Below, piece after piece: positions 57,025 through 64,000 of a DNA stretch of 64,000 nucleotides. The notes beneath the pieces were generated by a model. That model searched no databases. It was not told the origin of the DNA and was given only the letters and a program-made list of their open reading frames with translations. The stretch is taken from NCBI GenBank assembly GCA_009841115.1, contig VXML01000024.1:66249-130248 (forward strand), in the 5' to 3' direction. The translations under genes and the position numbers were made by a program. The stretch is from Gemmatimonadota bacterium (GTDB lineage: Bacteria; Latescibacterota; UBA2968; UBA8231). Within the stretch, counting starts at the first letter, position 1. Each line of letters begins with the position of its first letter.

Positions 57025-57882
57025 ATGGCGGAACAAGAAAAATTTTCTTTTGCCAAACCTTTTGTCTATTTGGTGCTATGCGGCTATCTGACGGTTGTGG
57101 TCTATCCGATGCTGTGGCTGTTGTACACTTCGCTGAAGACGGACCGCGAGATTTTTCTCAATCCTTTCAGCCTGCCCGAGTTCGACGCCTTGCAGTGGAT
57201 CAACTTTGCCAACGCTTGGACTAAGGGGCACTTCGGCGATTACTTCTTCAACAGCGTCTTTTTGACCATTTCGACGGTGGCGGTTTCCATGTTGCTGGCG
57301 GCAATGGCGGCCTATGCGCTGGCGCGCTTTCGCTTCTTTGGGGTGAGGCCGATGTTTTTCTACTTCTTGGCCGGGTTGATGATCCCGTTGCAATTGTCTA
57401 TTGTGCCGCTCTTTTTTCAAATGAAGGACTTTGGATTGCTCAATTCGCGGTTGGGTATCCTGATAGTCTATGTGGCCTTTGGGATGCCGTTTGCCATCTT
57501 TATTCTCACGGGGTTTTTCAAGTCTTTGCCTTCTGGGTTACACGAGTCGGCGCTGATCGATGGGGCGGGGGAGTTTCGGGCGTTTTGGTCGATTATGTTG
57601 CCGTTGGCGCGGCCGGGGCTTATTACGGTGGGCATCTTCGCCTTTTTGGGGACTTGGAACGAGTTTTTCATGGCCTTTATGTTCCTGTCTGGGGAGGGGT
57701 CGCAGGCGTTGCGCACTCTGCCGTTGGGGCTGGCTAATATCACTATTGTCAGTCAGTATCGCAGCGATTGGGGGATGGCTTTTGCGGGGTTGGTGCTGAT
57801 TATGGCTCCGACGATGTTGGTGTATGCGTTTTTGCAGCAATATCTGACGAAGGGGATTACTGTGGGGGCGCTTAAGGGGTAG
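57025..57882 (+). CDS. Carbohydrate ABC transporter permease, MalG-like
   Basis: GLHESALIDGAGEFRAFWSIMLPLARPGLITVGIFAFLGTWNEFFMAF; start ATG just after preceding TGA. Confidence 0.9.
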   Translation: MAEQEKFSFAKPFVYLVLCGYLTVVVYPMLWLLYTSLKTDREIFLNPFSLPEFDALQWINFANAWTKGHFGDYFFNSVFLTISTVAVSMLLAAMAAYALARFRFFGVRPMFFYFLAGLMIPLQLSIVPLFFQMKDFGLLNSRLGILIVYVAFGMPFAIFILTGFFKSLPSGLHESALIDGAGEFRAFWSIMLPLARPGLITVGIFAFLGTWNEFFMAFMFLSGEGSQALRTLPLGLANITIVSQYRSDWGMAFAGLVLIMAPTMLVYAFLQQYLTKGITVGALKG

Positions 57883-57924
57883 GGAGGGGCCGTGACGATT
57901 GGTAAGCAAAAGTGAGGAAGTAAT

Positions 57925-59025
57925 ATGCCAAGATTGAAGAATATCAAGATCAGGGGATTTCGGTCTATCAAAGAAATGACGCTGGAACTCCAGCCGCTCA
58001 ATGTTTTGATCGGTGCCAATGGGGCTGGTAAGAGCAATCTCATTGCCTTCTTCAAGTTAGTAAATGAATTAATGGGCGGACGGCTTCAGCAACATATTGG
58101 AGCGACCGGGAGGGCCACAGCCAATTTGCATTTTGGCCCGAGGATAACTCCTCAGTTGGAAGCGGAGATGGCGTTCGAGGTAGAGAATGGAACAGACACC
58201 TATAGCATGCGACTGTTCCACGCTGCCGGTGATTCGCTGATTTTCGCCGAAGAGACGCTGTCGTTTCATCAAACAGGCTTTCCGAGACCAAAGATCGTAC
58301 CGCTGGGAAGGGGCCATCAGGAAACGCGGATTGGAGATGAGGCAGAAAAGGATGACCCGGTGGCAAAAATGCTCCGGTATCTGCTGAATCGCTGTCGCGT
58401 CTATCACTTCCACGACACATCGCCGACTTCGAGAGTCCGGCAGTATTGCTACATCGGCGACAACCGCTGGCTCATGCCTGATGCAGCGAATCTGGCGGCG
58501 TTACTGTATGCACTCAAGTCCTCCAAAGAAACGGCTTATCGCCGAATTGTGGGGACCATTCGGCAGGTGGCACCGTTCTTTGAAGATTTTGATCTGGAGC
58601 CGACCGATTCTAAAGACATCACTCTCAACTGGCGGCATCGCAAGTCAGATCTCGTGTTTGGCCCCCACCAACTCTCGGACGGTACGCTGCGGGCCATCTG
58701 TCTGATTTCGCTGTTGTTGCAGCCCAAAGAAGACCTCCCAATACTCATAGTGGTGGACGAACCGGAAATCGGCTTGCACCCTTACGCGCTCAATGTGATT
58801 GCCTCGCTACTTCGCGCCGCAAGTCACCATACGCAGGTTCTCGTCAGCACCCAGTCCAGCGCGTTTCTCGACAGCTTTGAGTCTGAGGATATCGTAGTTG
58901 TCGAGCGGAATGGTGAAGCCACGGAGTTCTCCAGACCAGATGCCGAAGAGCTCGAAACATGGCTGGAGGAGTACTCGCTTGGGGAAATCTGGGAGAAGAA
59001 CGTCATCGGCGGAGGGCCGCACTGA
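57925..59025 (+). CDS. AAA family ATPase (OLD/RecF-like, AAA_21-type)
   Basis: IKIRGFRSIKEMTLELQPLNVLIGANGAGKSNLIAFF (Walker A); LPILIVVDEPEIGLHPYALNVIASLLRAASHHTQVLVSTQSSAFLDSF. Confidence 0.85.
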   Translation: MPRLKNIKIRGFRSIKEMTLELQPLNVLIGANGAGKSNLIAFFKLVNELMGGRLQQHIGATGRATANLHFGPRITPQLEAEMAFEVENGTDTYSMRLFHAAGDSLIFAEETLSFHQTGFPRPKIVPLGRGHQETRIGDEAEKDDPVAKMLRYLLNRCRVYHFHDTSPTSRVRQYCYIGDNRWLMPDAANLAALLYALKSSKETAYRRIVGTIRQVAPFFEDFDLEPTDSKDITLNWRHRKSDLVFGPHQLSDGTLRAICLISLLLQPKEDLPILIVVDEPEIGLHPYALNVIASLLRAASHHTQVLVSTQSSAFLDSFESEDIVVVERNGEATEFSRPDAEELETWLEEYSLGEIWEKNVIGGGPH

Positions 59026-59714
59026 TGGTGCGACTCCATCTCTTCGCCGAAGGTGACACAGAGCAGACATTTGCCGATACGGTCTTGAAGCCTCATCTAG
59101 CGAATCTTGGCGTCTATATGCAGAAACCGACCTTGATTGCCCACGCCCGGAAGAAGGGCATAGTCCATCGAGGAGGAGGTAGAAACTTCAGGGCGATGCA
59201 GAATGACATTGATCGCCGCCGCAAACAGGAATCGGGGAATGACGTGTTTTTTACCACGATGATTGACCTTTATGCCTTGCCTACGAAATTTCCCGGCGTT
59301 GAAGAAGCTGAGAAATTGCGTCTTGACCCATATAAGCGGGTGGAGGCTCTCGAAAAATCGTGGTTCGATGAGACCAATGATCATCGCTTCATCCCGTTCA
59401 TTCAGTTGCATGAATTTGAAGCGTATTTGTTTTCTGATGTATCTCAGTTCGCTTTCTTCTTTGACAATGCAGATTCCCCAATCTCCGCTTTGCAGAGCAT
59501 TGTCGATGATGTCCAGTCCCCAGAACTTGTTGACGACGGACAACACACGGCTCCATCGAAGCGGATCATCGCCGAATTTCCCGAATACTCAAAAACAACA
59601 GTAGGATCACAGATGGCCGAACGGATTGGCTTGGAGAACATCCTCTCCAAATGTCCTCACTTTAAGGCGTGGGTTGAGCGACTTGAGCAACTCGGAGCCA
59701 CCGAAAAGCCGTAA
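59025..59714 (+). CDS. DUF4276 family protein
   Basis: VRLHLFAEGDTEQTFADTVLKPHLANLGVY ... TTMIDLYALPTKFPGVEEAEKL ... FIPFIQLHEFEAYLFSD; TGATG overlap with ATPase stop. Confidence 0.8.
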   Translation: MVRLHLFAEGDTEQTFADTVLKPHLANLGVYMQKPTLIAHARKKGIVHRGGGRNFRAMQNDIDRRRKQESGNDVFFTTMIDLYALPTKFPGVEEAEKLRLDPYKRVEALEKSWFDETNDHRFIPFIQLHEFEAYLFSDVSQFAFFFDNADSPISALQSIVDDVQSPELVDDGQHTAPSKRIIAEFPEYSKTTVGSQMAERIGLENILSKCPHFKAWVERLEQLGATEKP

Positions 59715-59720
59715 TTCATA

Positions 59721-59850
59721 ATGACCAAAACGGCGACCCGGCTGACGACAGCGGTTGAAGCCTACTTCGCCGACCTGCAACGAGTCTAGGGTCCGGCGGC
59801 GTGACTGGCGAGCCATGGGCCACTGGCCAACCCAACTATTCTTGGCTCGA
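59721..59850 (+). pseudogene. Decayed N-terminus of a type ISP-like restriction/methylase gene
   Basis: atg..: MTKTATRLTTAVEAYFADLQRV* then, after a 1-nt shift, SGGVTGEP and later LANPTILG; matches the remembered N-terminus ATRLxTAVEAYFxDLRRVRASGGATGERSYYPxLANLLN. Confidence 0.5.
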
Positions 59851-59923
59851 CGACCAGCGTAATATAACGCTTGGTTTATGGTCGTTTCGCGTCGGACAGT
59901 CTGAATTCTAGGAGAGTGTAATC

Positions 59924-60838
59924 ATGTCTGATGGAATACGGAAAAAGATCGAAGTGCATCAAAAGTGGGGTTTTGGTATGGCTCCGCCAAAGGAACATAC
60001 TGTGGTCTTGCGTCAGAACGCGGTACGACTGGTCCTGAAAGCATTGAGTGGAGAGAAGGCAACAGACTCAGACTCACTCGCTGAGGCGATCAGTGAAGTC
60101 AAAGGCCTATTCAATCGATCAAAAAGAATGGACCAGTGGGATTGGTTCGTTGTCTGGGAACAACTTGGCTTACCGGAGCATAAGCGTCTGCACCGGATTG
60201 TAAGAGATTTAGTTGTCCTCAGAAAAGCAGTCGTGAATAATGATCCAATAGACTTTGAAAATGCTCGAAAACAATTACAGAATTGGGGGGCACTTACCTC
60301 ACTCAAATACTTCTTAGGACTAGAGAAACCGCCGATAGAGAAAGATACAGGCATCCTCTATATGTTAGGTGTCCGCGAAATGAAGGGACTACTCAAGATT
60401 GGCATCACTAAGCGTGACGTTAGATATAGGGTTAATGAGATAAACAGCGCGACAGGTATAATAATCCCTTTTGGTGTCAGATATGTTTGGCGGGTGCGAA
60501 ATCCTAATAGGGTAGAGCGAGAAGTCCACAAATTACTCGCAGACTATAGGGTTCGATCTGATCGGGAGTTTTTCAATATGGAATATAATGAAGCGGTTCG
60601 GATGATCACTAAGTTCCTTGGGGAAACACAAGGTTTGTCAAGGGAGCGCGGTATCGTCAAGCGTGTGTTGATCGAGAAGGGATACGGATTTTTATCATCC
60701 GATGGTAAGGATTTCTTTTTTCATGCAAAGGAAGTTAAAGGTACCTTTTCTGAGTTCAAAGAAGGCGATACTGTTGAGTTTAAGCGATTACACACTTCGC
60801 GTGGATATGCAGCATCAGATATTCGGCGGATAATGTAA
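59924..60838 (+). CDS. Fusion: helical N-terminus + T5orf172/MUG113 (GIY-YIG) domain + C-terminal cold-shock domain
   Basis: GILYMLGVREMKGLLKIGITKRDVRYRVNEINSATG...NRVEREVHKLLADYRVRSDREFFNMEYNEAVRMI; then GIVKRVLIEKGYGFLSSDGKDFFFHAKEVKGTFSEFKEGDTVEFKRLHTSRGYAASDIRRI. Confidence 0.8.
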   Translation: MSDGIRKKIEVHQKWGFGMAPPKEHTVVLRQNAVRLVLKALSGEKATDSDSLAEAISEVKGLFNRSKRMDQWDWFVVWEQLGLPEHKRLHRIVRDLVVLRKAVVNNDPIDFENARKQLQNWGALTSLKYFLGLEKPPIEKDTGILYMLGVREMKGLLKIGITKRDVRYRVNEINSATGIIIPFGVRYVWRVRNPNRVEREVHKLLADYRVRSDREFFNMEYNEAVRMITKFLGETQGLSRERGIVKRVLIEKGYGFLSSDGKDFFFHAKEVKGTFSEFKEGDTVEFKRLHTSRGYAASDIRRIM

Positions 60839-60857
60839 CTAAGCGACCTAATATGAT

Positions 60858-61033
60858 TGATGTGGCGGAAGATGTGGATGAGTCGGTCGCGCGTCGCTTG
60901 CGTCAGCGGCGGGCGGGCGAAAGACGCGAGGTTGGCGTCGAGGTGGTCGGCGTTGCCCGTGCCGGAGAGGACGACGTGGACGCCAGACTCGTCGCGGCAA
61001 AAGCGATAGGCGGCATCGGGTAGCGATGGAGCC
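60858..61033 (-). pseudogene. Relic of aldo/keto reductase 3' end (left copy of direct repeat)
   Basis: 176 bp aligned without indels to 63627-63802 with 14 mismatches counted by eye; translates SLPDAAYRFCRDESGVHVVLSGTGNADHLDANLASFARPPLTQATRDRLIHIFRHIN. Confidence 0.9.
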
Positions 61034-61065
61034 AGCGGAACCTGAATCATTGAAAGGAGTGAGCT

Positions 61066-62025
61066 ATGACAAGTTATAAAGGTTATGAGGAAGATGTGCG
61101 CCAGACGCTGTGGTCTTGGGCTGACCGACACTATCGGGGCAAACTCGATGACGGCAAGCGAGAAGGGCGTCCGCCGGTTCTCGCGAGAGAGTTCGCATCG
61201 GAGAATGTCTTGGTTCCTCCGAAAAACGAATCGAAGGCGCGTGACATTCGCGACGCCCTTTCCCGAGGTCGGCATCGGTGGTTTCACAGCCTGAAGAGTT
61301 CCCAGTCCTTGGCGCAAAGCGTGTTCGGTGCGCTCCGCGCCTTCAACCGCCTTGATCTGCTCCAAGATGTGTACGCCGAGTGTGGGCAATCGGCCTTCTT
61401 CGCAGACCGAAATGGCTGGAAGCTCTGCTTAGAGCATGAGATGAACAACCTAAGAGAGCCGAGACCGACCAGCGTCGACGTGCTGCTGAGCGAATCGGAA
61501 AAGCGAGTCGCTATCGAATGCAAGTTCACCGAGCAAGAGTTTGGTACCTGCTCGCGCCCACGCCTGCGTCCTAGCGATGCCAATTATGCCGAACAGCATT
61601 GCAATGGGAAGTATCAGATCCAACGGTCACGCCACGAGCGTTGCGCTCTGACGGAGATCGGTATTCGTTACTGGGAACATTTGCCCCACCTGTTCGATCG
61701 GCCGTCCGACCAAGATCACGAGCCGTGTCCGTTTGGAGAAGTCTATCAACTGGCGCGCAATGCGCTGGCCTCCGCACTCACGCCACATGGAGAGCTTGAC
61801 CTGACTGGAGGACACGCACTTGTCGTTTACGATGCTCGCAACCCCAAGTTCCAGGATGGGGGCAAGGCCACAGAGCAATGGACCGAAGCGGTCTCTGTGT
61901 GTCGCATGCCGGGCCTTTTGCGCCGCCTGAGTTGGCAGCGCCTGATGGCCGCCATCTCCCGTGCGCCAGAACTGGAGTATCTCGTCAATGGCGTTAGGGA
62001 GAAATATGGTATAGAGTCGGATTGA
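61066..62025 (+). CDS. Putative PD-(D/E)XK restriction-endonuclease-like protein (PGN_0703-like)
   Basis: TSVDVLLSESEKRVAIECKFTEQEFGTCSRPRLRPSDANYAEQHCNG (D..ECK core) and GGHALVVYDARNPKF. Confidence 0.65.
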   Translation: MTSYKGYEEDVRQTLWSWADRHYRGKLDDGKREGRPPVLAREFASENVLVPPKNESKARDIRDALSRGRHRWFHSLKSSQSLAQSVFGALRAFNRLDLLQDVYAECGQSAFFADRNGWKLCLEHEMNNLREPRPTSVDVLLSESEKRVAIECKFTEQEFGTCSRPRLRPSDANYAEQHCNGKYQIQRSRHERCALTEIGIRYWEHLPHLFDRPSDQDHEPCPFGEVYQLARNALASALTPHGELDLTGGHALVVYDARNPKFQDGGKATEQWTEAVSVCRMPGLLRRLSWQRLMAAISRAPELEYLVNGVREKYGIESD

Positions 62026-62063
62026 CTACCGGAAAAGATCGACCAAAGAGGACGAGTGTACCG

Positions 62064-62450
62064 ATGAACGAACAGGATGTACAGATCATTGAGAAGGACG
62101 GCGAGCCGGAATACGCTGTCGTCCCAATTGAGGAATACCGTCGCATGGTCGCCGCGCTTGAGGACGCGGCCGATTCTGCGGCTATCGAACGGGCATGGGC
62201 CGAGGACGCAGCAGGCGAGACGGTTCCGGGCGAAGTCGTAAAGGCCATTCTCGCTGGCGAATCGCCCTTGCGCGTGTGGCGGAAATACCGCGAATTCACG
62301 CTGGATGCACTGGCCGAGCAGGTAGGTGTCTCAAAAGGGTATTTGTCGCAGATTGAGAATGGACAGAAGTCCGGGACACTCGGCCTATTCCGCCGACTCG
62401 CGGGCGTGCTCAATGTGGCACTGGACGAGTTAGCACACCCAACGAGCTAA
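62064..62450 (+). CDS. XRE-family HTH regulator with Phd-like N-terminus (antitoxin-like)
   Basis: GEPEYAVVPIEEYRRMVAAL + YREFTLDALAEQVGVSKGYLSQIENGQKSGTLGLFRRLAGVLNVALDEL. Confidence 0.85.
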   Translation: MNEQDVQIIEKDGEPEYAVVPIEEYRRMVAALEDAADSAAIERAWAEDAAGETVPGEVVKAILAGESPLRVWRKYREFTLDALAEQVGVSKGYLSQIENGQKSGTLGLFRRLAGVLNVALDELAHPTS

Positions 62451-62465
62451 TGGAATCAACCATTT

Positions 62466-63587
62466 TTACTCAACGAGTGCCTCTCGGTGTGTCTTGTGAG
62501 ATTCCTCGTATAAGGCCATCACATCCAAATCTGGAATTTCTTCTGGTGCAAAGTACCACTTTGCAATGAGTGCCTCACCATCCACAGCCTGTACTTTAAG
62601 GTCAAAAATCACTTCTTGGGTTGGGTATGTGAGCGCAAGTTTATCACGCACTTGCTTCAGATCTACCGGGAAAGCAGCACCTTGCCTGGGCGCAGTGAGT
62701 TTGACATGCACGAAAAGCGGCATTTGTTGATTGAAAGTATTCAATCCGTGTACCGGCCCGAGAACATCGAGATAGTAGCGAAGCAACATTTCCTTATTGC
62801 GATCAATAACAATATCTCCTACTAGAGCACGGACGAGTGCATGCACGAAACGCACTAGATAGTCAACCTGTTTGCTGCTCAAGGTTAGGCTAGTGCCTTG
62901 CTCGGAACTTGAGAGAGTAAATGCGTCTTTGGAGACAGAGAAGCTATTTTTATGAACAACCTCATGGCGATATGGCAACAGTTGACAAAATAGTGCCTTG
63001 GCATAGGTGTAAAGGTACGGTTGACTATCGAAGAGAGTTGGTAGTTGGAGATTGGATTCTTTCTTCAGCAGCTCCACTTTCTTCTTAAAAGGTTGGGGAA
63101 CAGTTGTAAAATTCTCTTCAATGATCCACTCAAAGATCATATCTAGAGCCTTGAAGGAAGCCATAAAAGTAAAAGGCATCATGGTGTTTATGATTGTTGC
63201 GTTATAAAGAGAGGAGAGGTAGTCTTCAGAGACCATTTCTACATTACAAAACTCATCGCCGCTCGTGAGCTCGATTACCGGTGGATCGTCCTTACCCTGC
63301 ACCCTATCATAATTCTTTTCCAAAAAACTGAGAAACCAGATCTCATAATCCAACTTAGTCCGAAGTGCTGTGTTATGGACAGTAGCCAATTCCTTATCTT
63401 CTAGTTTTGATCTGATCTCTTCAAAAAGTTTTACGACCTCGGGCGTATAAAGGCGTTCGCCACAACGAAAACAAACTGCAGCTTGAACTTTTACGATCTC
63501 CGTGTGATTGCCAACTCGTAGAACTTTCTCGACTTCCTTTTCAATAATCTCGCCACTACACACTGGACATTTTGCCAACGGAGTCAT
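62466..63587 (-). CDS. YgiT/MqsA-N-type zinc finger fused to large HEPN-like domain
   Basis: CPVCSGEIIEKEVEKVLRVGNHTEIVKVQAAVCFRCGERLYTPEVVKLFEEI; later ALFCQLLPYRHEVVHKNSF with R-x4-H motif. Confidence 0.6.
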   Translation of the reverse strand: MTPLAKCPVCSGEIIEKEVEKVLRVGNHTEIVKVQAAVCFRCGERLYTPEVVKLFEEIRSKLEDKELATVHNTALRTKLDYEIWFLSFLEKNYDRVQGKDDPPVIELTSGDEFCNVEMVSEDYLSSLYNATIINTMMPFTFMASFKALDMIFEWIIEENFTTVPQPFKKKVELLKKESNLQLPTLFDSQPYLYTYAKALFCQLLPYRHEVVHKNSFSVSKDAFTLSSSEQGTSLTLSSKQVDYLVRFVHALVRALVGDIVIDRNKEMLLRYYLDVLGPVHGLNTFNQQMPLFVHVKLTAPRQGAAFPVDLKQVRDKLALTYPTQEVIFDLKVQAVDGEALIAKWYFAPEEIPDLDVMALYEESHKTHREALVE

Positions 63588-63600
63588 TACTATATCCTCT

Positions 63601-64000
63601 CTACACCTCTTGTCCCGTGGTAGAATTGACGCGGCGGAAGATGTGGATGAGTCGGTCGCGCGTCTCTTGCGTCAGCGGCGGGCGAGTGAAAGATGCGAGG
63701 TTGGCGTCGAGGTGAGCGGCGTTGCCCGTGCCGGAGAGGACGACGTGGACGCCTGGCTCGTCGCGGCAGAAGCGGTAGGCGGCATCGGGTAGGGATGGGG
63801 CCTCGGCCAATAGGAAGTCGGGGAAGGCATCGAGGCTTCGACCTGAGCTCAGCCGAAGGTCGGCGAGGTCGATTTGCCCCTTTTCGACGAGCGCGTCGGT
63901 GAATGCGCGCAGGTTGTCGGGGTGGCTAAGTGCCTTGCGGACGGCGAACATGATTTGGATGCCGACGTTTTGCGCGATGGCTTGTGCGAAGACGTTGGCG
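63601..64000 (-). CDS. Aldo/keto reductase C-terminal part, truncated by window edge
   Basis: ANVFAQAIAQNVGIQIMFAVRKALSHPDNLRAFTDALVEKGQIDL...LPDAAYRFCRDEPGVHVVLSGTGNAAHLDANL; frame open to window end. Confidence 0.8.
   Translation of the reverse strand, partial: ANVFAQAIAQNVGIQIMFAVRKALSHPDNLRAFTDALVEKGQIDLADLRLSSGRSLDAFPDFLLAEAPSLPDAAYRFCRDEPGVHVVLSGTGNAAHLDANLASFTRPPLTQETRDRLIHIFRRVNSTTGQEV

Follow-up and report, generated by a model that had tools for sequence, protein, structure and literature searches.

A predicted single-gene nuclease with four-helix, GIY-YIG and cold-shock domains in a bacterial defence hotspot

The gene at positions 59924-60838 of the 64,000-nucleotide window (the whole stretch of DNA analysed here) probably encodes an unreported type of phage-defence nuclease. 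Its nuclease and cold-shock domains are known parts, each with precedent in defence, while their combination with a third, helical domain appears undescribed; in the literature searched, T5orf172 and 'cold shock domain' occurred together in no paper. The reading we prefer, and hold about as probable as its opposite, is that of an anti-phage nuclease that was acquired horizontally and acts on its own; in it, the helices would dock or restrain the enzyme, the GIY-YIG domain would cut and the cold-shock domain would add affinity for single strands. The open reading frame starts with ATG, is preceded by an AGGAG sequence and encodes 304 amino acids in a single frame that contains neither internal stops nor frameshifts. 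Its parts are as follows.

59924..60838, plus strand: whole reading frame, four-helix domain, GIY-YIG (T5orf172/MUG113) nuclease and cold-shock domain
59951..60328, plus strand: N-terminal domain, residues 10-135, a predicted four-helix bundle without a Pfam family
60350..60613, plus strand: GIY-YIG nuclease domain, residues 143-230 (Y146, K158-I-G160, R169, E198, H202, E215-F-F)
60647..60829, plus strand: cold-shock domain, residues 242-302 (RNP1 KGYGFL; RNP2 DFFFHA)

Residues 143-230 matched Pfam T5orf172 (E 2.3e-15, 57.3 bits against a cut-off of 20) and residues 157-228, overlapping them, matched MUG113 (E 7.7e-14, 52.5 bits against 22.3). The cold-shock family CSD (PF00313) was found at residues 242-302 (E 2.6e-10, 40.5 bits against 27). 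These three scores are far beyond chance, and the first two place the protein, on sequence grounds, in the T5orf172/MUG113 nuclease subfamily. The initial annotation, which had described a nuclease and a cold-shock domain joined in one uninterrupted frame, was thus confirmed to the exact coordinates, with both Pfam domains above their cut-offs. Its two-domain architecture was incomplete, however, as the helical residues 10-135 had been missed and the domains number three. Three sequences went into a structure model of the complete protein (mean pLDDT 61), which matched viral T5orf172 proteins (best E 8e-8); the cold-shock part of this model is unreliable, being covered by no other row of the alignment. 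Foldseek comparison of the model with the PDB gave no match at E<0.001. Searching the PDB by sequence returned matches to the cold-shock domain only, and searching it by profile returned none. A transmembrane stretch was not found in the protein, whose highest 19-residue Kyte-Doolittle mean is 0.95.

Alignment of 37 GIY domains revealed strong conservation of the presumed catalytic residues: G160 was present in all 37, Y146, R169 and E198 in 36 each and H202 in 35, and K158 was likewise conserved, in 35-37 of the 37. The presumed catalytic residues, whose absence the initial annotation had named within a refuting outcome, are intact. The glutamate equivalent to E198 is required in SNIPE, where it is E414 (PMC13190303), and the equivalent glutamate is required in a T5orf172 nuclease (PMC8263062, PMC10448857). 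Because the presumed catalytic residues are kept and the glutamate is needed in these two enzymes, the protein is expected to be active as a nuclease. The nuclease domain also matched the PADLOC defence candidate PDC-S57 (E 3.2e-25). Membership in PDC-S57 was rejected since just profile positions 3-95 of 212 align, which correspond to the nuclease domain only.

Two distant full-length relatives were identified.

L002:7974-8693: Nocardiopsis algeriensis relative, 239 aa
L003:7992-8726: Sphingobium sp. AP50 relative, 244 aa

Both are 41-43% identical to the protein over residues 10-234 and share with it the HQKWGFGM motif, the four-helix domain and the T5orf172 domain, but they end after the nuclease domain and lack the cold-shock domain present here. 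The Nocardiopsis gene, the nearest relative, follows HmaA (E 0, 1260 bits), and the Sphingobium gene lies near plasmid-maintenance-type genes with no clear defence neighbour. A relative on a Rhizobium plasmid (L025:5926-6759) has kept the helices, whereas its GIY-YIG domain is degenerate and has lost the catalytic arginine and glutamate; it is the sole protein among the 37 aligned GIY domains without both R169 and E198. Presence of the family is patchy. Full-length relatives were found in 3 of about 1,990 genomes from four phyla, two of the three having been known beforehand; the figure counts 1,994 genome slots that overlap partly across repeated draws, so that distinct genomes are fewer, and one of the searches used the nuclease family only. 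The family with full-length architecture is clearly rare. No full-length match was present in ten genomes of the same genus, no relative was detected in viral contigs by three scans, one of them with the nuclease plus cold-shock combination, and phage records contained no full-protein relative.

As the two distant relatives share helices and nuclease without a cold-shock domain, the latter is an add-on to helices and nuclease. For the same reason, nucleic-acid recognition through the cold-shock domain cannot be central to what the family does. The modules have separate evolutionary histories. Only one of 79 distinct GIY domains gathered, a sample and not an exhaustive survey, has a cold-shock domain in the same reading frame, namely the protein described here; further T5orf172-CSD fusions were found neither among these 79 nor in plasmid or phage records. 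The GC contents of the helical, nuclease and cold-shock domains are 46, 43 and 43%. Being similarly low in all three, they suggest that the fusion predates the arrival of the gene at its present locus. The coexistence of natural relatives with and without the cold-shock domain makes its role directly testable.

Binding of cold-shock domains to single strands, typically ssRNA or ssDNA, is of low specificity. Modelled from the single sequence, residues 236-304 form a five-stranded barrel (pLDDT 84.8 at best, below 50 in the four other models). This barrel matched cold-shock proteins of the PDB (E 1.1e-5 to CspB; TM about 0.8 to CspB/CspA). RNP1 (KGYGFL) is kept and RNP2 is altered to DFFFHA. In the alignment with CspB, arginine and alanine stand at two aromatic binding positions, Trp8 and Phe30 in CspB numbering. 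The domain is likely to bind single strands, perhaps more weakly than, or differently from, a standard Csp. It further gave a match to the retron Se72 effector family (NF038236) of 36.6 bits, below the cut-off of 82, and membership in that family was rejected on this score.

These properties bear on the alternative that the protein is an abortive-infection or toxin-like effector, the cold-shock domain of which would sense or bind RNA, perhaps phage-induced transcripts, and the GIY-YIG domain of which would cut nucleic acid from both host and phage, so that the cell is stopped instead of spared. We regard this as unlikely, but it has several points in its favour: cold-shock domains usually bind RNA, cold-shock-like OB folds recur in predicted RNA-targeting systems (CoCoNuTs, PMC11090510), the sub-threshold retron match concerns an effector, and a gene without a separate immunity gene in its cassette would need a trigger for its activity. 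It is opposed by the fact that the GIY-YIG enzymes known in defence (SNIPE, CMoRE) cut DNA, and by the failure to find a sensor partner in the cassette.

The genomic context was analyzed by aligning the locus against the same locus in five congeners (G047-G051). It is bounded by conserved flanks, an ABC permease gene that ends at 57882 and an aldo/keto reductase gene that starts at 63601 and ends past the window. Between them the window carries a HEC-01 pair, the nuclease gene, a REase-ARP gene, an HTH protein gene and a gene for a YgiT-type protein, including the following.

57925..59025, plus strand: HEC-01A-like AAA ATPase, a defence candidate (PADLOC HEC-01A, E 8.5e-142)
58959..59714, plus strand: HEC-01B-like DUF4276 protein (PADLOC HEC-01B, E 7.8e-77; PF14103, E 2.7e-55)
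61066..62025, plus strand: REase-ARP restriction-endonuclease-like protein (PF22558, E 6.2e-28)

The slot of G047 contains the same HEC-01 segment as the window, followed by two proteins, one PDC-S50/AlbA and one PIN. A type ISP/IIG restriction-modification gene, a pAgo and a TIR protein occupy the slot of G048, and the remaining three hold an AlbA protein (G049), a NACHT protein of 1634 aa (G050) and a Cas3-HD protein (G051). Schlafen is also among the defence cargo of this hotspot. The nuclease gene is missing from the slots of all five congeners. Since direct comparison shows different defence cargo between conserved flanks, the permease-reductase slot is a defence-cargo hotspot. Defence genes in the neighbourhood, for which the initial annotation had advised looking, are thus present both as the adjacent HEC-01 pair and as cargo of the congeners' slots. 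Neither of the outcomes named there as speaking against a defence role was seen, that is, a close homologue with known housekeeping function, or absent catalytic residues together with no enrichment of defence genes. Among the other cargo, the YgiT-type gene (62466-63587; GC 43.8%) encodes 373 aa that begin with a zinc finger of the YgiT/MqsA type and continue in a long C-terminal region, and the 1634-aa NACHT protein (L085:5054-9958) matches no PADLOC family. On the same contig, right of the window, about ten units of 66 nt are arrayed in tandem (L069:16596-17553) inside a large reading frame (L070:7765-10560, minus strand); their spacing is typical of leucine-rich repeats.

The boundaries of the inserted segment could be approximated.

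59722..59787, plus strand: surviving initial codons of a type ISP/IIG restriction-modification gene (MTKTATRLTTAVEAYFADLQRV, stop after 22 codons)
59832..60855, no strand assigned: approximate single-gene cassette, from where the G047 alignment stops to where a duplicated reductase tail begins
60856..61032, minus strand: extra copy of the aldo/keto reductase 3' end (about 178 bp), at 92% to the resident gene

Homology to G047 extends as far as 59831, and the extra reductase tail, the boundary to the next cassette, begins at 60856, so that the nuclease gene seems to form a cassette by itself, about 1 kb long. At the place of the restriction-modification remnant, congener G048 has an intact type ISP/IIG gene (L084:2224-5568). 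A duplicated flank piece was also observed in G047 (L083:6503-6662), where it is the 3' end of the ABC permease. Because such short pieces sit between cassettes in the window and in G047, they suggest that cassettes stack in the hotspot through recombination of incoming flanks. The nuclease gene has a GC content of 44.0% (GC3 43%) against 58.8% for positions 1-57000 of the window. Rfam gave no match within 57800-64000, and scans for promoters and terminators stayed at chance level. No separate immunity gene or obvious partner is visible in the cassette, on account of which the activity is probably restrained by target recognition.

A selfish homing-type endonuclease that lives in the hotspot and helps to rearrange it would also fit the position of the gene, at a boundary that is rearranged and carries duplicated flank sequence; T5orf172 enzymes are, moreover, common phage homing endonucleases with swappable DNA-binding parts (PMC10448857). 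We consider this explanation quite unlikely. CapR/DUF723/DUF4397-type DNA-binding domains, almost always present in the T5orf172 homing genes examined in one study (PMC10448857), are absent, Pfam finding the nuclease and cold-shock domains only; no full-protein relative occurs in phage records or viral contigs; and flank duplications also accompany cassettes that lack the nuclease gene, for example in G047. The gene was not assigned to the T5orf172 homing endonucleases, as neither a phage, intron or intein location nor a CapR/DUF723-type domain was found.

The helical domain (residues 10-135) is what the relatives of the protein have in common. It starts with the motif HQKWGFGM(A/S)PxK, followed by SEVKGLFxRxxxxDQWDWF, and is predicted by AlphaFold as a helix bundle with most helices at high confidence and the conserved loop 69-83 at low confidence. 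It has no Pfam family, and comparison with PDB folds yielded no confident match. It is common to the Nocardiopsis, Sphingobium and Rhizobium proteins, to HelR-like helicases and to a 377-aa Chloroflexota protein encoded near a contig start (L110:169-1299). The relatives' profile detected it in nine large actinomycete reading frames, one of which, tested in full, is a UvrD-type helicase with sub-threshold resemblance to the HelR/HelD motors that recycle RNA polymerase. In this helicase a small, predicted beta-rich, OB-like stretch precedes the four-helix domain, which is followed by a tail with a D...E-V motif. The Chloroflexota protein has all three of these pieces, and its D...EVK looks complete; the lysine of the tail is present there and lost in the aligned actinomycete helicases. 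The arrangement was further found in Streptomyces.

L027:3325-6882, L147:4688-8119 and L148:4619-8170: OB-like stretch, four-helix domain and D...E(V)K nuclease-like tail

Motif and pattern alone lead us to call the tail PD-(D/E)XK-like and the stretch ahead of the helices OB-like; Pfam gave no match. On two Streptomyces plasmids the helicase comes after an ATPase with matches to the Lamassu protein LmuB. These loci (L148:1632-8170, L027:340-6882), consisting of an LmuB-like SMC ATPase, one or more small genes and the HelR-like helicase, look like a conflict operon.

That the four-helix domain is also found in HelR/HelD-like helicases, a group with named relatives that recycle RNA polymerase, could point to a host accessory factor of repair or RNA metabolism that resides by chance in a variable region. 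This is very unlikely: full-length relatives are extremely sparse, so that the distribution disfavours such a role, and the low GC content, the single-gene cassette and the surrounding defence cargo likewise speak against it. In two unrelated architectures, then, the helical domain stands by a nuclease-like domain and a small predicted barrel, in different order, a parallel that is suggestive but does not prove a shared mechanism. One might speculate, while thinking it improbable, that the four-helix domain is a docking module of several conflict proteins which joins varied nucleases (GIY-YIG here, PD-(D/E)XK-like on the helicases) and a single-strand-binding barrel at a common target, for example an RNA polymerase engaged in transcription or an R-loop formed on phage DNA. 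Should this be true, the protein would be a compact phage nuclease coupled to transcription or replication. The undescribed domain itself links nucleases and helicases of mobile defence contexts and is usable as a search handle.

In the preferred reading of an acquired anti-phage nuclease, the GIY-YIG domain would be the cutter, and the N-terminal four-helix domain would serve docking or regulation by positioning the cutter or holding it back, comparable to DUF4041 and the N-terminal region in SNIPE. The cold-shock domain would add affinity for single-stranded nucleic acid, such as phage ssDNA intermediates, R-loops or transcripts, and thereby concentrate cutting on actively replicating or transcribed foreign DNA. 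Protection against phages is inferred, as are cutting, docking and the targeting of single strands, while the three domains, the kept residues, the hotspot context, the patchy presence and the low GC are observed. Several points weigh against this reading: passengers and toxin-antitoxin genes also occur in cargo slots, the Sphingobium relative lies near plasmid-maintenance-type genes, the cold-shock domain is absent from the relatives and lacks two binding aromatics, and the four-helix domain has no fold match. If the protein is protective, SNIPE and CMoRE would be joined by a further kind of GIY-YIG phage defence encoded by a single gene, and self could possibly be distinguished from non-self through single-stranded nucleic acid instead of membrane location or base modification.

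Among known systems, SNIPE is a membrane nuclease composed of DUF4041 and GIY-YIG (PMC13190303). It resembles the protein in being a single-gene defence with the GIY-YIG domain at the end of a docking region and in its essential glutamate, conserved here, and differs in that a C-terminal cold-shock domain is found here instead. Membership was rejected, as DUF4041 was not found (Pfam, E up to 1) and a hydrophobic segment is absent, whereas the majority of SNIPE homologues have a membrane anchor (PMC13190303). The type IV GIY-YIG restriction enzyme CMoRE/PD-T4-3 (PMC12923530) is likewise a single component with a C-terminal recognition domain. Its nuclease is N-terminal with a GIYxY-YIG motif, in contrast to the mid-protein nuclease with GILY...KIG and the cold-shock, rather than modification-sensing, domain of our protein, which was therefore not assigned to CMoRE either. 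Odn and the phage T5orf172 homing endonucleases (PMC8263062, PMC10448857) belong to the same nuclease subfamily and have exchangeable binding domains, but these are RepA_N and CapR, reside in phage genomes and do not include a cold-shock domain. CoCoNuTs (PMC11090510), the TALON/TOTE TPR-CSD proteins (PMC12458937) and the retron Se72 effector share a cold-shock domain in a putative defence protein; they are multi-gene systems for which GIY-YIG is not reported, unlike the single gene with GIY-YIG described here. HelR/HelD-like actinomycete helicases with a C-terminal extension (e.g. WP_272591552.1) carry the same four-helix domain on a large SF1 helicase, and their tail resembles PD-(D/E)XK and not GIY-YIG. 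As judged from its domains, the protein follows the outline of SNIPE or CMoRE, a single gene with GIY-YIG and a recognition region, but is a member of neither.
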